39,333 nucleotides of DNA from a virus, in the IMG/VR virus record IMGVR_UViG_3300044977_000035, positions 1 to 39,333 of that record; one strand, written 5' to 3'. The notes under the pieces were generated by a model, which was not told where the DNA came from, did no database searches, and was given only the letters and a program-made list of their open reading frames with translations. Position numbers and translations under genes: made by a program. Positions 24,075 to 32,169 of the stretch are shown piece after piece; the stretch's first letter is position 1; each line of letters starts with the position of its first letter.

Positions 24075-24295
24075 AACAGTACCTGATCAATTTCGCGATC
24101 CTGCTGGACGAACTGGGGAACACACTCACCGGCGGCGACCCGGGCGAGACGATCAGCAGCCGTGCAGGCAAGGGCCTGAAAGAGGGCAAGACATGGGCCT
24201 GCGTCCTGTGCCGCTTTCTTGACCTGTTCCAGAAGGACCATTGCCTGAAATCCATCAACCCTGACGACGGCACGCGAGCCGTGGTGAAAGACTGA
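24071..24295 (+). CDS. Conserved small phage protein, 74 residues
   Basis: ATGA overlap with the holin. Contains NFAILLDELGNTLTGGDPGE, TISSRAGKGLKEGKTWACVL and CRFLDLFQKDHCLKSI; three cysteines near a helix. From memory, a similar small protein is found beside lysis genes in many phages. No membrane segment, so not a spanin. Function unknown. Confidence 0.78.
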   Translation: MKQYLINFAILLDELGNTLTGGDPGETISSRAGKGLKEGKTWACVLCRFLDLFQKDHCLKSINPDDGTRAVVKD

Positions 24296-24858
24296 TGAAC
24301 AATCTAGTAAAAATCGCGCAGGGTATCGACACGGCACCACTCCTGCTCGCTATCGCGCGCCAGCCCCGGCTGTGGAACCGGCATGGGATGCGCACGGAGT
24401 ATGAACAGAGTCCGCACGCGCAGGCCGACGATATCTGGTTGCGGTTCAATGACGAAAAGCCGTTCAAGGAATCGGGCGACTACTCCGGGATCAGCGACCA
24501 GCACGACTCGATCTTCTATCCGGAATGGTACGCCCTGCCCCAGGCGCGGCCGATCGTCTACGGGCTCATGGCACGTGTCGAGGGAACCCGGCTCGGCGGC
24601 ATCCTGATTACCCGGATTCCAGCGGGCGGCCGCATCCTGCCGCACGTGGATGATTCGTGGCACGTGAAGCATTACAATACGAAAATTTACGTGGTCCTGC
24701 AAAGCAATCCGCAATGCGTGAACCGCGTTGAGGATGAACAGGTCGTGATGGCCCCCGGCGAGGCGTGGTACTTCGATAACACGAAGGAGCACGAAGTGGT
24801 GAACGACGGACCGGACGACCGGATCAGTCTTATCGTTTCGATCAGGTGCGAGAAATGA
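24295..24858 (+). CDS. Aspartyl/asparaginyl beta-hydroxylase-like 2OG-Fe(II) dioxygenase
   Basis: 187 residues, ATG on the previous stop (TGATG). The double-stranded beta-helix core has PHVDD (His117-x-Asp119), EHEVVNDG (His166) and DDRISLIV (Arg176, ten residues later), the Fe and 2-oxoglutarate set of the AspH-like family. Such enzymes hydroxylate protein side chains or small molecules. It overlaps a cupin gene and lies between the lysis genes and the internal virion proteins, so its substrate could be a virion or host protein (inference). Confidence 0.82.
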   Translation: MNNLVKIAQGIDTAPLLLAIARQPRLWNRHGMRTEYEQSPHAQADDIWLRFNDEKPFKESGDYSGISDQHDSIFYPEWYALPQARPIVYGLMARVEGTRLGGILITRIPAGGRILPHVDDSWHVKHYNTKIYVVLQSNPQCVNRVEDEQVVMAPGEAWYFDNTKEHEVVNDGPDDRISLIVSIRCEK

Positions 24859-25136
24859 TCAGCTTTCACAACATCGGCGGCGTGATCCTGCGCGAGGAAA
24901 AGCTCGAAGCCGGTCAGGAAGTTGAGAAGCACGTCCACGCTTACGACCACCTGAGCTATCTCGCGAGCGGACGAGCGCTGATCGAAATCGGCGATGAGCT
25001 ATTCATCATGGGCGGCCCCGCAGCGATAGAGGTAAAGGCAGGACAGAAACACCGGATTCAGGCCATCACCGATATCACGTGGCTGTGCATCCACGCGGAG
25101 GCAATTGCCGACCCGGAAACACTGAACAGGGAGTAG
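24855..25136 (+). CDS. Small cupin protein
   Basis: 93 residues from ATG 24855 (ATGA overlap with the dioxygenase). Cupin motif 1 is seen as KHVHAYDHLSYLASGRALIE (His26, His28, His32) and motif 2 as GQKHRIQA (His66), giving a plausible metal site. It could be a second enzyme or a sensor or partner for the dioxygenase. Translational coupling of the two suggests a joint reaction. Substrate unknown. Confidence 0.82.
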   Translation: MISFHNIGGVILREEKLEAGQEVEKHVHAYDHLSYLASGRALIEIGDELFIMGGPAAIEVKAGQKHRIQAITDITWLCIHAEAIADPETLNRE

Positions 25137-25139
25137 ATC

Positions 25140-26123
25140 ATGCCTTTTGCCATCGCGGCACCCGCCATCGGCGCCGGTATCTCCGCACTCACGGGCCCGA
25201 GCTCGCAGGCGAGTGGCGGTGGGTCAAACCTCTACACGCCCACGGGGCTCAGTACCGCCGATCAGACGTGGCAAGGTCTGCTCGGCAATGAGTACAACAC
25301 GTACAACCAGAACGGAATCAGCCAGTACGGCTTGCAATCCCTGCTCGCGGGGTTGCAGAACCAGCAGGCTTACGCGCCCCAGTTGCAGCAGGGCGCGAAT
25401 GCGGCCGGCGCGCAGTACGGCACGCTCGGCCAGCAGCTGGGCGGCGCTTCGGGCACGGAATTCAATGCTGCGAACCAGATTTACAACACCGCTTTCGACC
25501 CGCAGAACGCGCTGTTCAACCAGCTATCGAACCAGCAGCAGCAGCAAAGCGGCGCCACGAACTCGATGTACGGGCTCGGCTCTTCCGGCGTGGGCGCGGG
25601 AATCGCGAACCAGAACCAGCAGAACTTCGATATCAACTGGCAGAACCAGCAGTTAGGGCGCCAGACGCAGGGCTTGCAGGCCATCGGGCAGGCGTATGGG
25701 CAAGCGGGCCAGCTCGGGCAGGCAGGCGCACAGGCGACGCTCACAGGCAGCCAGTTGCCCTACCAGACCGCGCAGGGCATCGCAGGCACGCCGGGGCAAC
25801 TCGGGAACACCTACGGCCAGTACCTGCAATCGAACGTGTACAACCCGGCGCAAGGCATGGAAAGCCAGATCATCCCTTACCTGAATTACGGCCAGGGGGC
25901 GACAAGCAACGCCTACAATCAGGCATCGAACAGCGCGGGCGCACTGGGTAGCGCGGTCTCGCAGGGAATCGGCGGCCTGGGTACCCAGTTGCAGAACGCT
26001 GGCGGCTTCGCCAACCTGTTCGGCGGCACGACCGGCTCATTTGGCGGGGGTAACTTCTCCGGGGCGTTCAACTCCAATCCGTACTACAGTGGCGGCGGTA
26101 ACTCATACGGCTTCACGAGCTAG
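25140..26123 (+). CDS. Gln/Gly/Asn-rich internal virion protein candidate
   Basis: 327 residues, rich in Gln, Gly, Asn, Ala and Tyr, almost without charged residues after residue 60. It starts with a hydrophobic stretch (MPFAIAAPAIGAGISALTGP) and ends in a Gly/Ser/Tyr tail. The next two genes are also long, low-complexity and Ala/Gln-rich, the pattern of podovirus ejection proteins that leave the head with the DNA and form a channel through the envelope. Placed by composition and order only. Confidence 0.75.
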   Translation: MPFAIAAPAIGAGISALTGPSSQASGGGSNLYTPTGLSTADQTWQGLLGNEYNTYNQNGISQYGLQSLLAGLQNQQAYAPQLQQGANAAGAQYGTLGQQLGGASGTEFNAANQIYNTAFDPQNALFNQLSNQQQQQSGATNSMYGLGSSGVGAGIANQNQQNFDINWQNQQLGRQTQGLQAIGQAYGQAGQLGQAGAQATLTGSQLPYQTAQGIAGTPGQLGNTYGQYLQSNVYNPAQGMESQIIPYLNYGQGATSNAYNQASNSAGALGSAVSQGIGGLGTQLQNAGGFANLFGGTTGSFGGGNFSGAFNSNPYYSGGGNSYGFTS

Positions 26124-26131
26124 GGGGCATC

Positions 26132-27640
26132 ATGGCAGGACTTGGCGGCCTTCCCGCATTCCTCCAGTACCAGCAGGCGGCGCAGCAACAGGCGAACCAG
26201 AATCAGCAGGCGCAAATCCAGCTTGCCCAGTTCCAGCAGTCGCAGGCCCAGCAACGCCAGCAGCAGGCCGCAATGGCCGCTGCGGGTAACGCGCTGCCGC
26301 AACTGCTGGCCAGTGGTCAGGCAGGCGCGCCGCAGCAAGGGCAAATGCCGCCCCCGCCGCAGCCCCCTCAACCGGGTCAACCGTCACAGCCCCAGCAAGC
26401 TCCGCAACAGGCTGGCGCGCCCATGCCGGGGCAAGGTCCTGCACCGGGCGCCGTCAAGCCGCCCTTGCCCCCGTTTCGCCCCATGCCGACGACGCCTAGC
26501 CAGGTGCAGACCGCTCCTCAGGGCGCGATCCCTGCGCCTCCAGTACCTCAATCGGCGCCGCCCCAACAGCCCCAGCAAGGGCAGGGCGGCCCTTTGACCC
26601 TGCAAAGCGCGATCAAGGTCTTGCAGGACCAGGGTCTATCCGGCGCTGACCTCATGGTTGGATTGCAGCAACTGACGCCGTTGCTCGATGCGCAAGCCAA
26701 ACAGCAGGCAACGCAGGCACAGCAGCAGTTCAACCAGCAACTTCAGCTAGCCAAGCTGGGCGAAGCGCGCGATTCGTTGCAAGCCCGTATCGATGCTGCA
26801 AAGCAGGCGTCCGAAAACCGCAAGCTGGGAATCGAAGAGCGCGCACAAGCCGCTGCGGACTCGCGCGCCTTGCAAGGCCAGTTGCTTCAATTCCGCATGG
26901 ATGAGGCGCGTGCGAAACATGCCGCCGATCCCGATGCGAAGTTGAGTCCCGATGACGTGCACTTCCTCGCCCAGCAAGCCGTGGCCGGGGACACCTCCGT
27001 CTACCAGAACCTGGGACGCGGTGTGCAGGGCGCGCAAAATATCGTAGCCATCCGCCGCGAGGTGGAGAAGATCCGCACTGCGCAAGGCGAGACCGGAGCC
27101 GATCAGGCCGCCGCTACTGCCACCTTCCAGGGTGAGAAGGCAGCGGCGCGCACAGGCGCGACGAAGGCGGCGAACGTCGGGATGGCCGTGGCCGAAGCGC
27201 AGCAGACTTTCCCGATTGTCCGTCAGGCGTCGGCCGCATTGCCGCGTACGCAGTTTCCGGGCGTCAATGCCGCGATGCAGGCCGCGCAGACCGGCACGGG
27301 CGACCCGCGCGTGGTTGCGCTGGGCACCGCGCTAAACACCGCAGTGAACGCCTACTCACGAGCAATCAGCCCGACAGGTACGCCCACCGTGGCCGACAAG
27401 GAACACGCACGCGAACTGTTGACTACGGCGAGCACGCCCGAACAGCTCGACGCGGTGCTGAACGTTATGGAACGCGAAATGAAGGCAGCCCGTCAGGCGC
27501 CGGCTGAAGTGCAGGCACAGCAGAAAGCCCGCATTTCCGGTCGCGGCGAAGGCGCGCCGGCACCGGGTACCGTGGAAGGCGGTTACCGGTTCAAGGGCGG
27601 CGATCCGTCGCAGCAGTCGAGCTGGGAGAAAGTGCAATGA
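26132..27640 (+). CDS. Gln/Ala-rich internal virion protein candidate
   Basis: 502 residues. The first 60 are a Gln-rich helix (QYQQAAQQQANQNQQAQIQL), 70-160 a Pro/Gln linker, and the rest a long Ala/Gln coiled coil with charged spots (LGEARDSLQARIDAAKQASE). Ends YRFKGGDPSQQSSWEKVQ. Likely an ejection protein; its stop overlaps the next start. Confidence 0.75.
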   Translation: MAGLGGLPAFLQYQQAAQQQANQNQQAQIQLAQFQQSQAQQRQQQAAMAAAGNALPQLLASGQAGAPQQGQMPPPPQPPQPGQPSQPQQAPQQAGAPMPGQGPAPGAVKPPLPPFRPMPTTPSQVQTAPQGAIPAPPVPQSAPPQQPQQGQGGPLTLQSAIKVLQDQGLSGADLMVGLQQLTPLLDAQAKQQATQAQQQFNQQLQLAKLGEARDSLQARIDAAKQASENRKLGIEERAQAAADSRALQGQLLQFRMDEARAKHAADPDAKLSPDDVHFLAQQAVAGDTSVYQNLGRGVQGAQNIVAIRREVEKIRTAQGETGADQAAATATFQGEKAAARTGATKAANVGMAVAEAQQTFPIVRQASAALPRTQFPGVNAAMQAAQTGTGDPRVVALGTALNTAVNAYSRAISPTGTPTVADKEHARELLTTASTPEQLDAVLNVMEREMKAARQAPAEVQAQQKARISGRGEGAPAPGTVEGGYRFKGGDPSQQSSWEKVQ

Positions 27641-29178
27641 TGCCGTGGGAAAAGTACGCACAGGACACCGCCGCCGACACGACCGGCCCTTGGGACAAGT
27701 ACAAGGGCGCGAGCGCTGCACCGGCGCAGGCCGCCGCGCCTGCCAGTCCGCTCGATCGTCTCCCGCCGGACGTGTCTCCCGGTAACCAGCAACCAAAGAA
27801 TGCTGACGACATCGCGCACCGCGTGCTTGGACTCGGCGAGGCCGGTCTGTCTGCTGCGACTGGCGCAGTGGGCGGCGCGGCCGGCCAGCTGTACGGCATC
27901 GGCAAGACGCTTGCAAGCGGCAAGTTCGGCACGCAACAGGGCGTCCAGCAGGGCGAACAGGCAGGCGTGAACCTCGCTAACAAGCTCACCTATCAACCAC
28001 GTACGCAGACCGGCCAGGGGCTCACGGAAGACGTAGGCAAGGCGTTCGAAGCATCTCGCCTTCAAGGCTTACCCGTCGAAGCCGGAACCTTGGGCCGCAT
28101 CGGGGAGGTTCCGCGCGGCGCTTTGGCGACGGGAGAAGGCGCAGCGAACATCGCAGGAAAGGGCGCGGCCGCAGTCGGGAAGGCGGCGGGCAGCGCGGCC
28201 GCAAAAGCACTTCCCGAAGTCGATCCGGCAACCGCCGCACTGGCTCGCGACGCGCACGCAATGGGTTTTCGCCTCACGCCGGACCAGGTAGTGGGCGGCA
28301 AGTACGCGAAGGCAATTGGCGAAGGCGCGGCCAATCTGCCGCTATCCGGCAGCAACCTGAAGTACAACCGGGACGTGTTCACGCAGAACGTAGCCAAGCT
28401 GGCCGGCGTCGAGGGCGACAAGCTGACGCGCAAAGCGTTCGGAGATGCGACGAAGAAAGTCGGCTCAGGCATTGGTGAGCTGAACAATAAGTACGACTTG
28501 CCCATCGATAAGTCTTTTGTGCCACAACTGCGTACGGAAGCACGAGGCCAGTCGCCCGAAGTGGCTGGCGCAGTGAACTACTTCGCGGATCGTATCGCAA
28601 AGAACACGGCTGGCGGCAATCTCAATGGAACCGTGTTCCGGCGCATCAACACCGAGCTAAACAACCGCATCAAGACGACTAGCAACGGCGACCTGAAGTA
28701 CGCGCTCGGCAACATGCAGGACAAGTTGCTCGACCTGCAACAGGCGCAGATGAGCCCCGCCGACAAGGCAGCACTTCAGGGCTTGCGACGCACGTATGCG
28801 ATTCAGCGCACCATTGAGCCACTGGTTGCGAAGAGCCCTACTGGTGATGTTGCTCCCTCGGCGCTGCTCGGTGCGATTACTTCCACTAAAGCGGGCAAGG
28901 CGGCGGCCGCACGCGGCGCGTCGGGCGATCTTGGCAAGCTGGCGGATATAGGCCAGCGCTTCCTCAAGGAAAACCCCTCCAGCGGGACGGCGGAGCGTAG
29001 CTGGGCGCAAGGCATTCCCTCCGCGCTTGGCGGCCTCGCAGGCGGCACGGCGGGTGTGGCGGGGGCAGGTTTGGGCGCACTAGGAGCGGCAGCAGGCACT
29101 ATCGGCGCAGCGAACCTGTACAACCGGTTCGGGCCTGCTATCACTAATCGGTTGATCGGTGTACCGCCCATGCCGTGA
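27637..29178 (+). CDS. Ala/Gly-rich internal virion protein candidate
   Basis: 513 residues, starting ATGATG on the previous stop. The N-terminus has two WxKY-type repeats (PWEKYAQD, PWDKYKGA). The middle is Ala/Gly-rich helix (GEGAANIAGKGAAAVGKAAG), and the C-terminus has hydrophobic Gly/Ala stretches (ALGGLAGGTAGVAGAGLGAL) that could cross a membrane. Fits a podovirus DNA-ejection protein. Last gene of the main late operon. Confidence 0.75.
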   Translation: MMPWEKYAQDTAADTTGPWDKYKGASAAPAQAAAPASPLDRLPPDVSPGNQQPKNADDIAHRVLGLGEAGLSAATGAVGGAAGQLYGIGKTLASGKFGTQQGVQQGEQAGVNLANKLTYQPRTQTGQGLTEDVGKAFEASRLQGLPVEAGTLGRIGEVPRGALATGEGAANIAGKGAAAVGKAAGSAAAKALPEVDPATAALARDAHAMGFRLTPDQVVGGKYAKAIGEGAANLPLSGSNLKYNRDVFTQNVAKLAGVEGDKLTRKAFGDATKKVGSGIGELNNKYDLPIDKSFVPQLRTEARGQSPEVAGAVNYFADRIAKNTAGGNLNGTVFRRINTELNNRIKTTSNGDLKYALGNMQDKLLDLQQAQMSPADKAALQGLRRTYAIQRTIEPLVAKSPTGDVAPSALLGAITSTKAGKAAAARGASGDLGKLADIGQRFLKENPSSGTAERSWAQGIPSALGGLAGGTAGVAGAGLGALGAAAGTIGAANLYNRFGPAITNRLIGVPPMP

Positions 29179-29292
29179 GCGCAGCAACGGCAACGAAAGG
29201 CGAGATGAGACCTATCCTGAAAAGGCAGTGAATGCAGTAAGCTGAACCGGCGGCAGTAACGCCAACCCAGAACAGGAACTCGAGTAAATGCT

Positions 29293-29466
29293 TCATTGCT
29301 TGAAGTCATCCATGCAGGATGGATCACGAAAAGCACCGCAAACGTAGCCCCATGAAAGGGCGACGTGCGACGCAGCCTTGATAGTTTCCGCTTTGTCCTG
29401 CTGACCGGCGGAATAGGAAAAGCAGCCGACGATAGCGGCGAAGAGTAAGGCGCAGACAAGTTTCAT
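29293..29466 (-). CDS. Small lipoprotein-like exported protein, reversed gene (moron candidate)
   Basis: 57 residues from ATG 29466 with GGGAG upstream. The start MKLVCALLFAAIVGC is a signal peptide ending in a plausible lipobox (IVGC, Cys15); ordinary Sec cleavage further on is the alternative. The mature part is short with three further cysteines. It stands alone on the minus strand between plus-strand late genes, with its own copy of the phage promoter element at 29492-29511, the hallmark of a moron. Small phage lipoproteins often block superinfection at the cell surface; that is a hypothesis here. Confidence 0.72.
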   Translation of the reverse strand: MKLVCALLFAAIVGCFSYSAGQQDKAETIKAASHVALSWGYVCGAFRDPSCMDDFKQ

Positions 29467-29491
29467 GGTGATCTCCCAGGTTGTTACGACC

Positions 29492-29511
29492 ACTATAGCA
29501 ATTGCAAAATG
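29492..29511 (-). promoter_or_regulatory. Phage promoter/operator element, copy 4, for the lipoprotein-like gene
   Basis: On the minus strand CATTTTGCAATTGCTATAGT, with a perfect GCAATTGC core, 26 bases before ATG 29466. The ATG of the divergent ATP-grasp gene (29509) lies inside its far end. Confidence 0.65.
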
Positions 29512-30852
29512 AAAATACTAGTCATAGATGTCGGATCGAACGCGCTTGACCTGTGCATGCGCTGGCAGATGCAGGGCCATATCGTGAAGTGGTACGACAA
29601 ACCGCGTCCTGACGGCACCGACCGCCACGCGGGTGAGGGCATCGTGGAGAAGATCCGCGATTTCAATGACCTGCGAAAGAAGTGGATCGGCTGGGCGGAT
29701 CTCATCTACACGCCTGACAATGTGTGCTATCTCGATCTGCTGGAGCCCTACCGCAAGATCGGTTACCCCATCTTCGGTTGCAATCTCGAAGCTGTGGAGT
29801 GGGAGCTGGACCGCGAAGTCGGACAGAAGGTCATGGAGGAATGCGGCATGCCGGTCATTCCGGGCAAGACCTTTCACGACTACGATTCAGCGGCGGCTTA
29901 CGTAAAGAAGGAGGGTAAAGCGTTCGTCTCCAAGCCTTCCGGCGACGGCGAGCGTGCAATGTCCTACGTCGCGAATAACGCGGCGGATATGGTCTACATG
30001 CTGGAGCGTTGGAAGAAGATTCCGAAGTACGTGAAAGCGGCCCGCGAAGAGGGGTTTATTCTCCAGACCAAGGTAGACGGGATGGAAATGGCTGTCGGCG
30101 GCTGGTTTGGTCCAGGCGGCTGGAGCGCCGCCGGGTGGGTTGAAAACTTCGAGAACAAGAAACTCATGAACGGCGATCTCGGGGTCAACACTGGCGAAAT
30201 GGGCACTACCGTCCGGGTTATTCGAAAAAGCAAACTGGCGGATATGGTCCTTAAGCCAGCTACGGAGCACCTGAAGCGCGTCGGGTATGTCGGCTACGTC
30301 GATGTGAACTGCATGATAACGCACGATGGAACCCCCTACCCGCTCGAGTGGACGATGCGCGACGGCTGGCCGATCCGCCACAACCTGACGGCACTGATTG
30401 AAGGCGATCAGGCCCAGTGGATGCTGGACCTGATCAACGGCAAGGATACGCTGAAGATAAAGCGCGATACGGTCTGCATCTCCGTCCTGATGGCGCTTCC
30501 TGACTTCCCTTATTCGAAGATCACGAACAAGGAACTGTGCGGAATCCCGATCTATAATGCGGAAGACCTCGATCACCTGCACTACTCTGAAGTCATGATT
30601 GGCACGGCGCCGCGCGAGGTGAACGGCAAGGTAGTCAGTCTTCCGGGTCCCGTAACCGCAGGCGATTATGTGCTTGTCGCCACGGGGCAGGGAGAGTCGA
30701 TAACAGGCGCACGCCGCAGCGCCTACAGCGCATTGAAAAAGGTGAAGATACCCAACTCGCCTTTTTACAGGACGGACATTGGTGCGGGCCGTTTGAAAAA
30801 ACAGCTTCCCGATCTTCAGCGCCTGGGGTACGCAATAGGTCTTTCTTACTAG
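29509..30852 (+). CDS. PurD-like ATP-grasp ligase
   Basis: 447 residues. The start MKILVIDVGSNALDLCMRWQ is a Rossmann strand, so the start codon is credible although no Shine-Dalgarno lies before it. The ATP-grasp middle has AFVSKPSGDGERAMSYVANN, ILQTKVDGMEMAVGG and VDVNCMI...YPLEWTMRDGWP, the ATP- and metal-binding places. The whole looks like phosphoribosylamine-glycine ligase (PurD), but a phage copy next to an HExxH protein may join an amino group to another substrate or to a peptide. Amidoligase systems with peptidases in phages have been proposed from comparative genomics. Reaction unproven. Confidence 0.82.
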   Translation: MKILVIDVGSNALDLCMRWQMQGHIVKWYDKPRPDGTDRHAGEGIVEKIRDFNDLRKKWIGWADLIYTPDNVCYLDLLEPYRKIGYPIFGCNLEAVEWELDREVGQKVMEECGMPVIPGKTFHDYDSAAAYVKKEGKAFVSKPSGDGERAMSYVANNAADMVYMLERWKKIPKYVKAAREEGFILQTKVDGMEMAVGGWFGPGGWSAAGWVENFENKKLMNGDLGVNTGEMGTTVRVIRKSKLADMVLKPATEHLKRVGYVGYVDVNCMITHDGTPYPLEWTMRDGWPIRHNLTALIEGDQAQWMLDLINGKDTLKIKRDTVCISVLMALPDFPYSKITNKELCGIPIYNAEDLDHLHYSEVMIGTAPREVNGKVVSLPGPVTAGDYVLVATGQGESITGARRSAYSALKKVKIPNSPFYRTDIGAGRLKKQLPDLQRLGYAIGLSY

Positions 30853-30860
30853 GAGTCATC

Positions 30861-31472
30861 TTGAAAATCTCCGAGCCCTATCCGGGCGTTTTACATCTTG
30901 AGTTTGCGACTCGCAAAGACCTTACTTTGACGATGGCACGCGTACAAGAATTTTACGAATCGCCCTATCCGCACATCAAAGGGCGCTATTTCACCTGGGC
31001 GCAGTTTGTTGATGCGTACTCTGACGACAAGGGCAATCTGACCTACTTTCAGGAGTGGGAAGGGTTCAACGTCCCTCGCGCGATTCTGACCACGTTTTAT
31101 CAGATTTTCACAGATCTTTCGCCGCGCGAGGAGTGGCTGCGTACAGTGTCCGACGAATGCGAATATCTGATCGGCACCGATAAGGATAGTGACCCGTCTG
31201 CGGTCCTGCATGAGCTTGCGCATGCAAAATACAAACTGAACCCCGAGTACAGAAAACAGGTTCGCGCGATAACTGACAAGATGACGCAGGATCTTGGCTT
31301 TCGTTTCCAGCGCGATCTCCGCGCGGCCGACTACCCTGACGATGTTGAAATACTTCGTGATGAGGTTCACGCCTACCTCAAAACGTCAACGGAAGAGGAA
31401 CTAGTGGAGACGTTCCCCAGCGTGTCGCCTGAAGAGCGCGCACCCTATGAAGCAGCATTACGCCTGTTATAG
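30861..31472 (+). CDS. HExxH metallopeptidase-like protein
   Basis: 203 residues from TTG 30861, fixed by AGGAG five bases upstream. VLHELAHAKYKL gives the zinc motif His117-Glu118-x-x-His121, and RDEVHAYL (Glu168, His170) 50 residues later offers the third ligand, as in gluzincin-like peptidases. The N-terminus has a beta-rich domain (IKGRYFTWAQFVDAYSDDKG). No signal peptide. It follows the ATP-grasp gene by eight bases and probably works with it, for example to cut a substrate before or after ligation (inference). Confidence 0.75.
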   Translation: MKISEPYPGVLHLEFATRKDLTLTMARVQEFYESPYPHIKGRYFTWAQFVDAYSDDKGNLTYFQEWEGFNVPRAILTTFYQIFTDLSPREEWLRTVSDECEYLIGTDKDSDPSAVLHELAHAKYKLNPEYRKQVRAITDKMTQDLGFRFQRDLRAADYPDDVEILRDEVHAYLKTSTEEELVETFPSVSPEERAPYEAALRLL

Positions 31473-31483
31473 GAGTCATGATC

Positions 31484-31639
31484 ATGCCTATGAAGTCCAA
31501 AGCACAGAACCGTTTCATGCACGCCGCTGCGGAAGGAAAAGTAAAAGGTGTGCCGAAAAAGGTCGGGAAAGAATTTGTCAGTGCGCAGCACGGCAAATCG
31601 TTAAAAGGCTTGCCTGAAAAGAAAAAGGCCAAAAAATGA
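31484..31639 (+). CDS. Small basic DUF3008-like protein, 51 residues
   Basis: ATG 31484 is eight bases after AGGAG; ATG 31478 is too close. MPMKSKAQNRFMHAAAEGKV, then KKVGKEFV, resembles DUF3008, short basic proteins of unknown function that often begin MPxKSKAQ. The last 12 residues are Lys-rich. ATGA overlap with the next gene. Confidence 0.72.
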   Translation: MPMKSKAQNRFMHAAAEGKVKGVPKKVGKEFVSAQHGKSLKGLPEKKKAKK

Positions 31640-32169
31640 CTGGCCGTACGCGCCGCGCGGGCGGGATCTCCGAACAGGCGATCAAGACCGCGCTTACCGA
31701 ATCAAAAGGGGATATCTTCCTCGCTGCCTGCGCGCTCGACTGCACTCCCCGCGAGCTGGACACCTACATCCGGCGCAGTGCTGCCCTCCAGGCTTTCGCT
31801 GGCGCGATAGAACAGGTCAAAATTGACCCTGCGTACTCCCGCCTCAGCACCGAGCAGTTCGAAAATCAGGTCGCTGATCTTGTACGGGCTTTCCGCGTTG
31901 ATGGAATAAAGGAAGTTCACAAGCTCGCCACGATGGAGTTCGGCGACAGCGCCGCCCTCGCCAAAGTCAAACTCGACGCGGCGCTTGCTCTCACAGGAGG
32001 CAGTAGCACGCGGCAGGGTAATAGCGAAACTGAGAACGCCTTGGCTGAATTGAATACTCTTTATCATGCGAATGCTCCAAGGATTAAGGAAATACGCCAA
32101 ACAGTGATCACCCTTCGGGATGACAGGGAAGCTCTTCCACTAACGATCGAACAGCGGCAAGATCCTTGA
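31636..32169 (+). CDS. DNA-binding protein, terminase small subunit candidate
   Basis: 177 residues. The N-terminal 50 have a helix-turn-helix pattern (AIKTALTESKGDIFLAACAL, then RELDTYIRRSAALQ) as in small terminases; a helical middle (LARTY-like turns absent; VADLVRAFRVDGIKEVHKLA) suits oligomerisation. In this map it follows the virion block and precedes the replication block. The large subunit is 23 kb away, which is unusual but known. Its last 62 bases overlap the convergent gene at 32108. Function is a moderate inference. Confidence 0.65.
   Translation: MTGRTRRAGGISEQAIKTALTESKGDIFLAACALDCTPRELDTYIRRSAALQAFAGAIEQVKIDPAYSRLSTEQFENQVADLVRAFRVDGIKEVHKLATMEFGDSAALAKVKLDAALALTGGSSTRQGNSETENALAELNTLYHANAPRIKEIRQTVITLRDDREALPLTIEQRQDP

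Follow-up and report, generated by a model that had tools for sequence, protein, structure and literature searches.

The window, by which we mean the whole 39,333-nucleotide stretch of DNA analysed here (IMGVR_UViG_3300044977_000035), comes from a Paraburkholderia-type phage and carries a gene for a PurD-like ATP-grasp ligase that belongs to a large, nearly virus-only subfamily. Judging from its residues, the enzyme is unlikely to synthesize GAR. We tentatively favour the reading that it is an active late amide-bond ligase, which would probably modify a protein at virion assembly or entry. The HExxH gene that follows it is an independent accessory gene, inserted into a variable slot behind the ligase. 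The features discussed below are, in order along the window:

24295–24858, plus strand: aspartyl/asparaginyl beta-hydroxylase-type protein
24846–25136, plus strand: cupin protein
25140–26123, plus strand: probable internal virion or ejection protein of 327 aa, named from position and conservation (no family match)
26132–27640, plus strand: probable internal virion or ejection protein of 502 aa, named from position and conservation (no family match in Pfam or PHROGs)
27637–29178, plus strand: DNA ejection protein (PHROG 26400, from PHROGs), upstream of the ATP-grasp gene
29144–29493, minus strand: two small ORFs (50 and 66 aa), outside the module
29509–30852, plus strand: PurD-like ATP-grasp ligase, ATG start, 447 aa, a core late gene of the phage group
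30850–30859, plus strand: direct repeat TAGGAGTCAT, left copy, containing the TAG that ends the ATP-grasp gene and the ribosome site of the HExxH gene
30861–31472, plus strand: HExxH zincin-like protein, inserted cassette, TTG start, 203 aa
31470–31479, plus strand: direct repeat TAGGAGTCAT, right copy, beginning at the HExxH stop
31478–31639, plus strand: small basic protein of 53 aa (PHROG 16759), the next gene in many relatives
31636–32169, plus strand: 177-aa protein of unknown function, a near-constant downstream neighbour in the cluster

The ATP-grasp protein and its relation to PurD

In a comparison with one near relative, the ATP-grasp gene showed a dN of about 0.03 against a dS of about 0.56; it is therefore a real coding gene, and it is under strong purifying selection. 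Its median identity within the window's cluster was 83%, compared with 49–62% for the ejection genes. Based on Pfam annotation (E up to 0.1), the protein contains GARS_A (3.4e-10, above the cut-off) and GARS_C (5.4e-8, slightly below the cut-off) and nothing else, while PHROGs gave no family match. Solved PurD proteins were matched as well. The PurD-like character noted in the preliminary description was thus borne out, and the purD model TIGR00877 aligned over residues 1–427. However, the score of 112.6 bits is far under the curated equivalog cut-off of 288 bits and does not place the protein in the PurD equivalog, whereas the intact host purD in three Paraburkholderia genomes with such prophages reached about 570 bits. 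In the predicted structure (pLDDT 86), the whole chain resembles PurD, including the N, ATP-grasp and C domains, and 386 residues matched 2qk4 (VIA Z 31.8, rmsd 3.3). Among the viral folds of BFVD, none was closer to the model than TM 0.49.

An alignment to 32 PurD proteins provided 97 invariant columns, of which the ATP-grasp protein keeps 28, including E99, K142, E193, K217, E280, R284, R421 and D423. The N-terminal GGREHA motif, a mark of PurD membership, is absent in all aligned phage members; the D and E of PurD's GDPE are missing from the window protein, the PurD hinge Glu is replaced by Gln186, and the metal-site Asn by Thr282. Over 37 phage clusters defined at 60% identity, E99, K142, E193, E215, K217, E280 and R284 are invariant, so the catalytic Lys/Glu/Arg set of the ATP-grasp superfamily (K142, E193, K217, E280, R284) is complete. 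The replacements R102 (K in PurD), E215 (D), E230 (G), T233 (A), D265 (Y) and T282 (N) are fixed or nearly so across these clusters and two plasmid proteins. In the phylogenetic tree, the phage and plasmid members form a single long-branched clade apart from PurD, with a support of 94.

Because the GGREHA motif has been lost, the phosphoribosylamine site of the phage ligase appears to be altered. The low TIGR00877 score, the missing motif and the fixed subfamily replacements together make GAR synthesis unlikely; the preliminary description had already held simple purine synthesis to be unlikely. It had also pointed out that the phage has no other purine genes, and none came up among those window ORFs that were compared with Pfam and/or PHROGs, a set that included part of the small ORFs. 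Consequently, a true PurD raising the purine supply during infection, to which the fold and the full-length alignment would lend themselves, is most improbable in view of the score, the loss of GGREHA, the 28 columns kept, the intact host purD genes and the lack of other purine genes among the scanned window ORFs. It is improbable, too, that a former enzyme has been retained in the virion for a structural or binding role: the position behind the ejection genes and the two changed active-site positions are consistent with this, but the seven residues invariant in all 37 clusters argue against it.

Literature searches on ATP-grasp proteins with ejection or internal virion proteins and Paraburkholderia prophages, and on phosphoribosylamine-glycine ligase or phosphoribosylglycinamide synthetase with prophage, returned nothing on the phage PurD-like subfamily.

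The HExxH gene and the slot behind the ligase

The preliminary description had proposed that the ATP-grasp enzyme and the HExxH protein form one peptide-modifying system. The arrangement on which the proposal was built is present: the HExxH gene starts with TTG eight bases after the ligase gene, and AGGAG lies 5 bases ahead of the start. The ORF is a real coding gene, since it aligns with 81 family members that share invariant residues (R27, E30, Y32, E33, H117, E118, H121, D167 and E168).

Co-occurrence of the two genes was evaluated from both sides. A scan of viral contigs yielded 133 stretches encoding ATP-grasp relatives, and in none of the 80 loci kept (75–96% identical) was the HExxH gene found. 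Likewise, none of the 82 HExxH-family loci outside the window had an ATP-grasp ligase of the window type nearby. The unrelated contig L433 supplied a second adjacent pair, in which the HExxH gene precedes a ligase of 43% identity by 10 bases; in the nearest relatives of L433 the HExxH gene is missing. The genes are therefore not conserved together, being adjacent in only 2 of about 280 phage loci, and these two directly adjacent pairs hint at most at a weak functional link.

The junctions tell the same story of independence. In the window the HExxH gene is flanked by two 10-bp direct repeats in the order TAGGAGTCAT, HExxH gene, TAGGAGTCAT, while L014 has only one TAGGAGTCAT, placed after the stop of the ligase gene and before the following gene, and L004–L006 carry another short stretch in the HExxH position. 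Thus, the content of the slot behind the ligase varies, and in the window phage the HExxH gene has been inserted there as a cassette.

On the strength of the 2 in about 280 loci and the insertion signature, we rejected the ligase-peptidase pair. The adjacency in the window and again in L433 speaks for a single peptide-modifying system, yet with the site empty in relatives and the fetched HExxH-family viral loci free of the ligase, such a system is very improbable. Absence of the HExxH gene from most relatives had been named beforehand as an outcome that would count against the proposal, and none of the close relatives has the gene. What stands of the proposed modifying system is amide-bond ligation as the likely chemistry; the partnership with a peptidase does not.

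The HExxH protein itself belongs to a large uncharacterised phage family with an RxQEFYES motif, which includes the window protein (30861–31472) and L228–L307. A pattern search with the window protein alone found no relative, and the relatives were recovered only with a three-member alignment. At least 259 viral stretches encode members, many of them on large contigs. The window protein has the invariant motif residues and matches the family HMM at 1.9e-56, the window protein itself having contributed to that model. Its structural model (pLDDT 95) gave a weak best fold match to PPEP-type zincins (VIA Z 5.9, rmsd 4.7, 134 residues), and Foldseek returned no match at E up to 0.001. The annotation of one family member, XacN1 ORF432, as an ABC transporter ATP-binding protein looks wrong.

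Distribution and genomic neighbourhood of the ligase

Scans of viral stretches led by the plasmid proteins and by L433 confirmed at least 525 and at least 571 ligase relatives, respectively. In cellular genomes of the host family, the subfamily was present in 6 of 398, three of the six being known as Paraburkholderia prophage loci. Among 398 Pseudomonadota genomes, no member was found besides the known prophage, and the matches obtained with a looser cut-off in the same genomes look like ordinary PurD. Plasmid homologues occur in Halarchaeum, Roseomonas and Sphingomonas (in two pieces), and the tree places the proteins of Halarchaeum and Roseomonas (L337 and L338) among the phage sequences, inside the ligase clade. 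The phage members L369–L374 are divergent, with about 30% identity to the window protein and up to 44% to the haloarchaeal protein, and may point to another host range.

A search of a phage collection with the portal protein gave no match and thus supplied no isolated close phage. MW202796 has little sequence in common with the window beyond the ligase gene and a remote terminase. In L008 (IMGVR_UViG_3300037852_000046, 79073 bases), two different hydroxylase gene copies are located about 40 kb apart, which suggests that two related phages have been joined, either in tandem or through the assembly.

In most clusters, the ligase gene sits directly behind a large gene for an internal or ejection protein. 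In 170 of 259 loci, a large same-strand gene ends no more than 5 nt from the start of the ATP-grasp gene, most often with an ATGA overlap. For the other long ORFs of these loci the figure is 218 of 549; as the sampled loci are related, the Fisher p (5e-12) overstates the difference. Counted by cluster, the arrangement occurs in 26 of 37. Gene overlap is common in phages. The upstream proteins differ strongly in sequence (mean column identity of 10%), and some match families of DNA ejection proteins, internal virion proteins with an endolysin domain, SLT transglycosylases, tail lysozymes and tape-measure proteins; many have no family match. In many relatives of the window, the end of the DNA ejection gene is overlapped by the ATP-grasp start (ATGA), and in the window itself the two small opposite-strand ORFs lie between these genes. 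One of the two has a signal-peptide-like start, and both run against the late operon. A T7-promoter-like sequence, TACGACCACTATAGCA, precedes the ATP-grasp gene; a phage promoter series was considered and rejected, as the sequence occurs only once in the window. It lies on the plus strand in a short intergenic stretch common to many relatives, from which the small minus-strand ORFs run.

Genes for the Asp/Asn-hydroxylase-type protein and the cupin precede the ejection genes in all 60 of the window-cluster loci with enough upstream sequence, and in several other clusters a GNAT acetyltransferase gene is found upstream in their place. In the L433 and L452 clusters, whose contigs carry PhoH and nuclease genes, the ATP-grasp gene is away from the ejection genes; therefore, the ligase does not have to act on an ejection protein. 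A MazG-like gene is located nearby in the window.

Proposed function and comparison with known systems

ATP-grasp enzymes form an acyl phosphate, which is then attacked by an amine. Based on the above results, we suggest that the phage ligase would act late in infection, using ATP to form an acyl phosphate and then linking a carboxylate with the amine of an acceptor that is not phosphoribosylamine. Since Gln186 and Thr282 replace the PurD hinge Glu and metal-site Asn, the residues predict ligase activity and do not prove it. The likeliest acceptor would be a protein, whether one of the internal or ejected proteins of the virion or a host protein encountered on entry, since the genes around those for the ejection proteins encode candidate protein modifiers of the GNAT and Asp/Asn-hydroxylase types. 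The more specific idea that the ligase is carried inside the virion and injected along with the ejection proteins, or attaches an amino-acid-like group to them, is rather unlikely. If true, a very large set of phages would share a virion-linked covalent modification of a new kind.

A small-molecule acceptor is also possible. It may quite conceivably be that the enzyme couples an amino acid with a nucleotide or another metabolite of the infected cell, serving nucleotide supply, DNA modification or the blocking of a defence signal, the place beside the ejection genes being simply a late-gene slot. Most of the near structural neighbours (PurD, PurT, PurK, PylC and biotin carboxylase) act on small molecules, the PhoH-bearing phages keep the gene outside the ejection module, and the MazG-like gene fits this reading. 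The plasmid relatives among metabolic genes also speak for it and against a protein-directed role. On the other hand, the window ORFs that were scanned revealed no gene set for DNA hypermodification, and the recurrent position behind a large late gene, seen in 26 of the 37 clusters, speaks against it. A protein-directed ligase is still the reading we tentatively prefer.

Whichever acceptor applies, a conserved enzyme with an apparently altered substrate site is encoded in hundreds of phage contigs under Pfam labels that name PurD domains only, and automatic assignments of such phage genes to purD or purine metabolism are likely wrong. The usual position behind ejection-protein genes offers a handle on phage chemistry at assembly or entry.

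With PurD (TIGR00877, PF01071/PF02843), the phage ligase shares the entire domain order and fold, the ATP-grasp catalytic residues and the C-terminal YRxDIG motif. It differs in falling far under the equivalog cut-off, in lacking GGREHA and in the fixed replacements listed above, and the subfamily occurs mainly in phages and not alongside purine genes. The plasmid PurD-like proteins of Halarchaeum and Roseomonas have the same TGExGT, PLExTxR and RxDIG signatures but their identity to the window protein is 32% and 26%, respectively, and they are encoded on plasmids among metabolic genes. The HExxH protein shares its motif, HExxH and DE pair with the RxQEFYES family of XacN1 ORF432 and relatives, although the other members are found mostly in large phages and without the window-type ligase.

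The R2K-clade (DUF4343) ATP-grasp ligases of phages are predicted to form peptide or amide bonds, and a role in phage-host conflict has been proposed for them (PMC4431377, PMC7824862). The window protein had no match to the R2K (DUF4343) Pfam family at E up to 0.1; it belongs to another clade and has the full PurD architecture with a C-terminal GARS domain. The two groups have in common that they are phage-borne ATP-grasp enzymes predicted to form peptide or amide bonds. In its mode of action, the phage PurD-like protein most likely resembles an ATP-grasp amide ligase.
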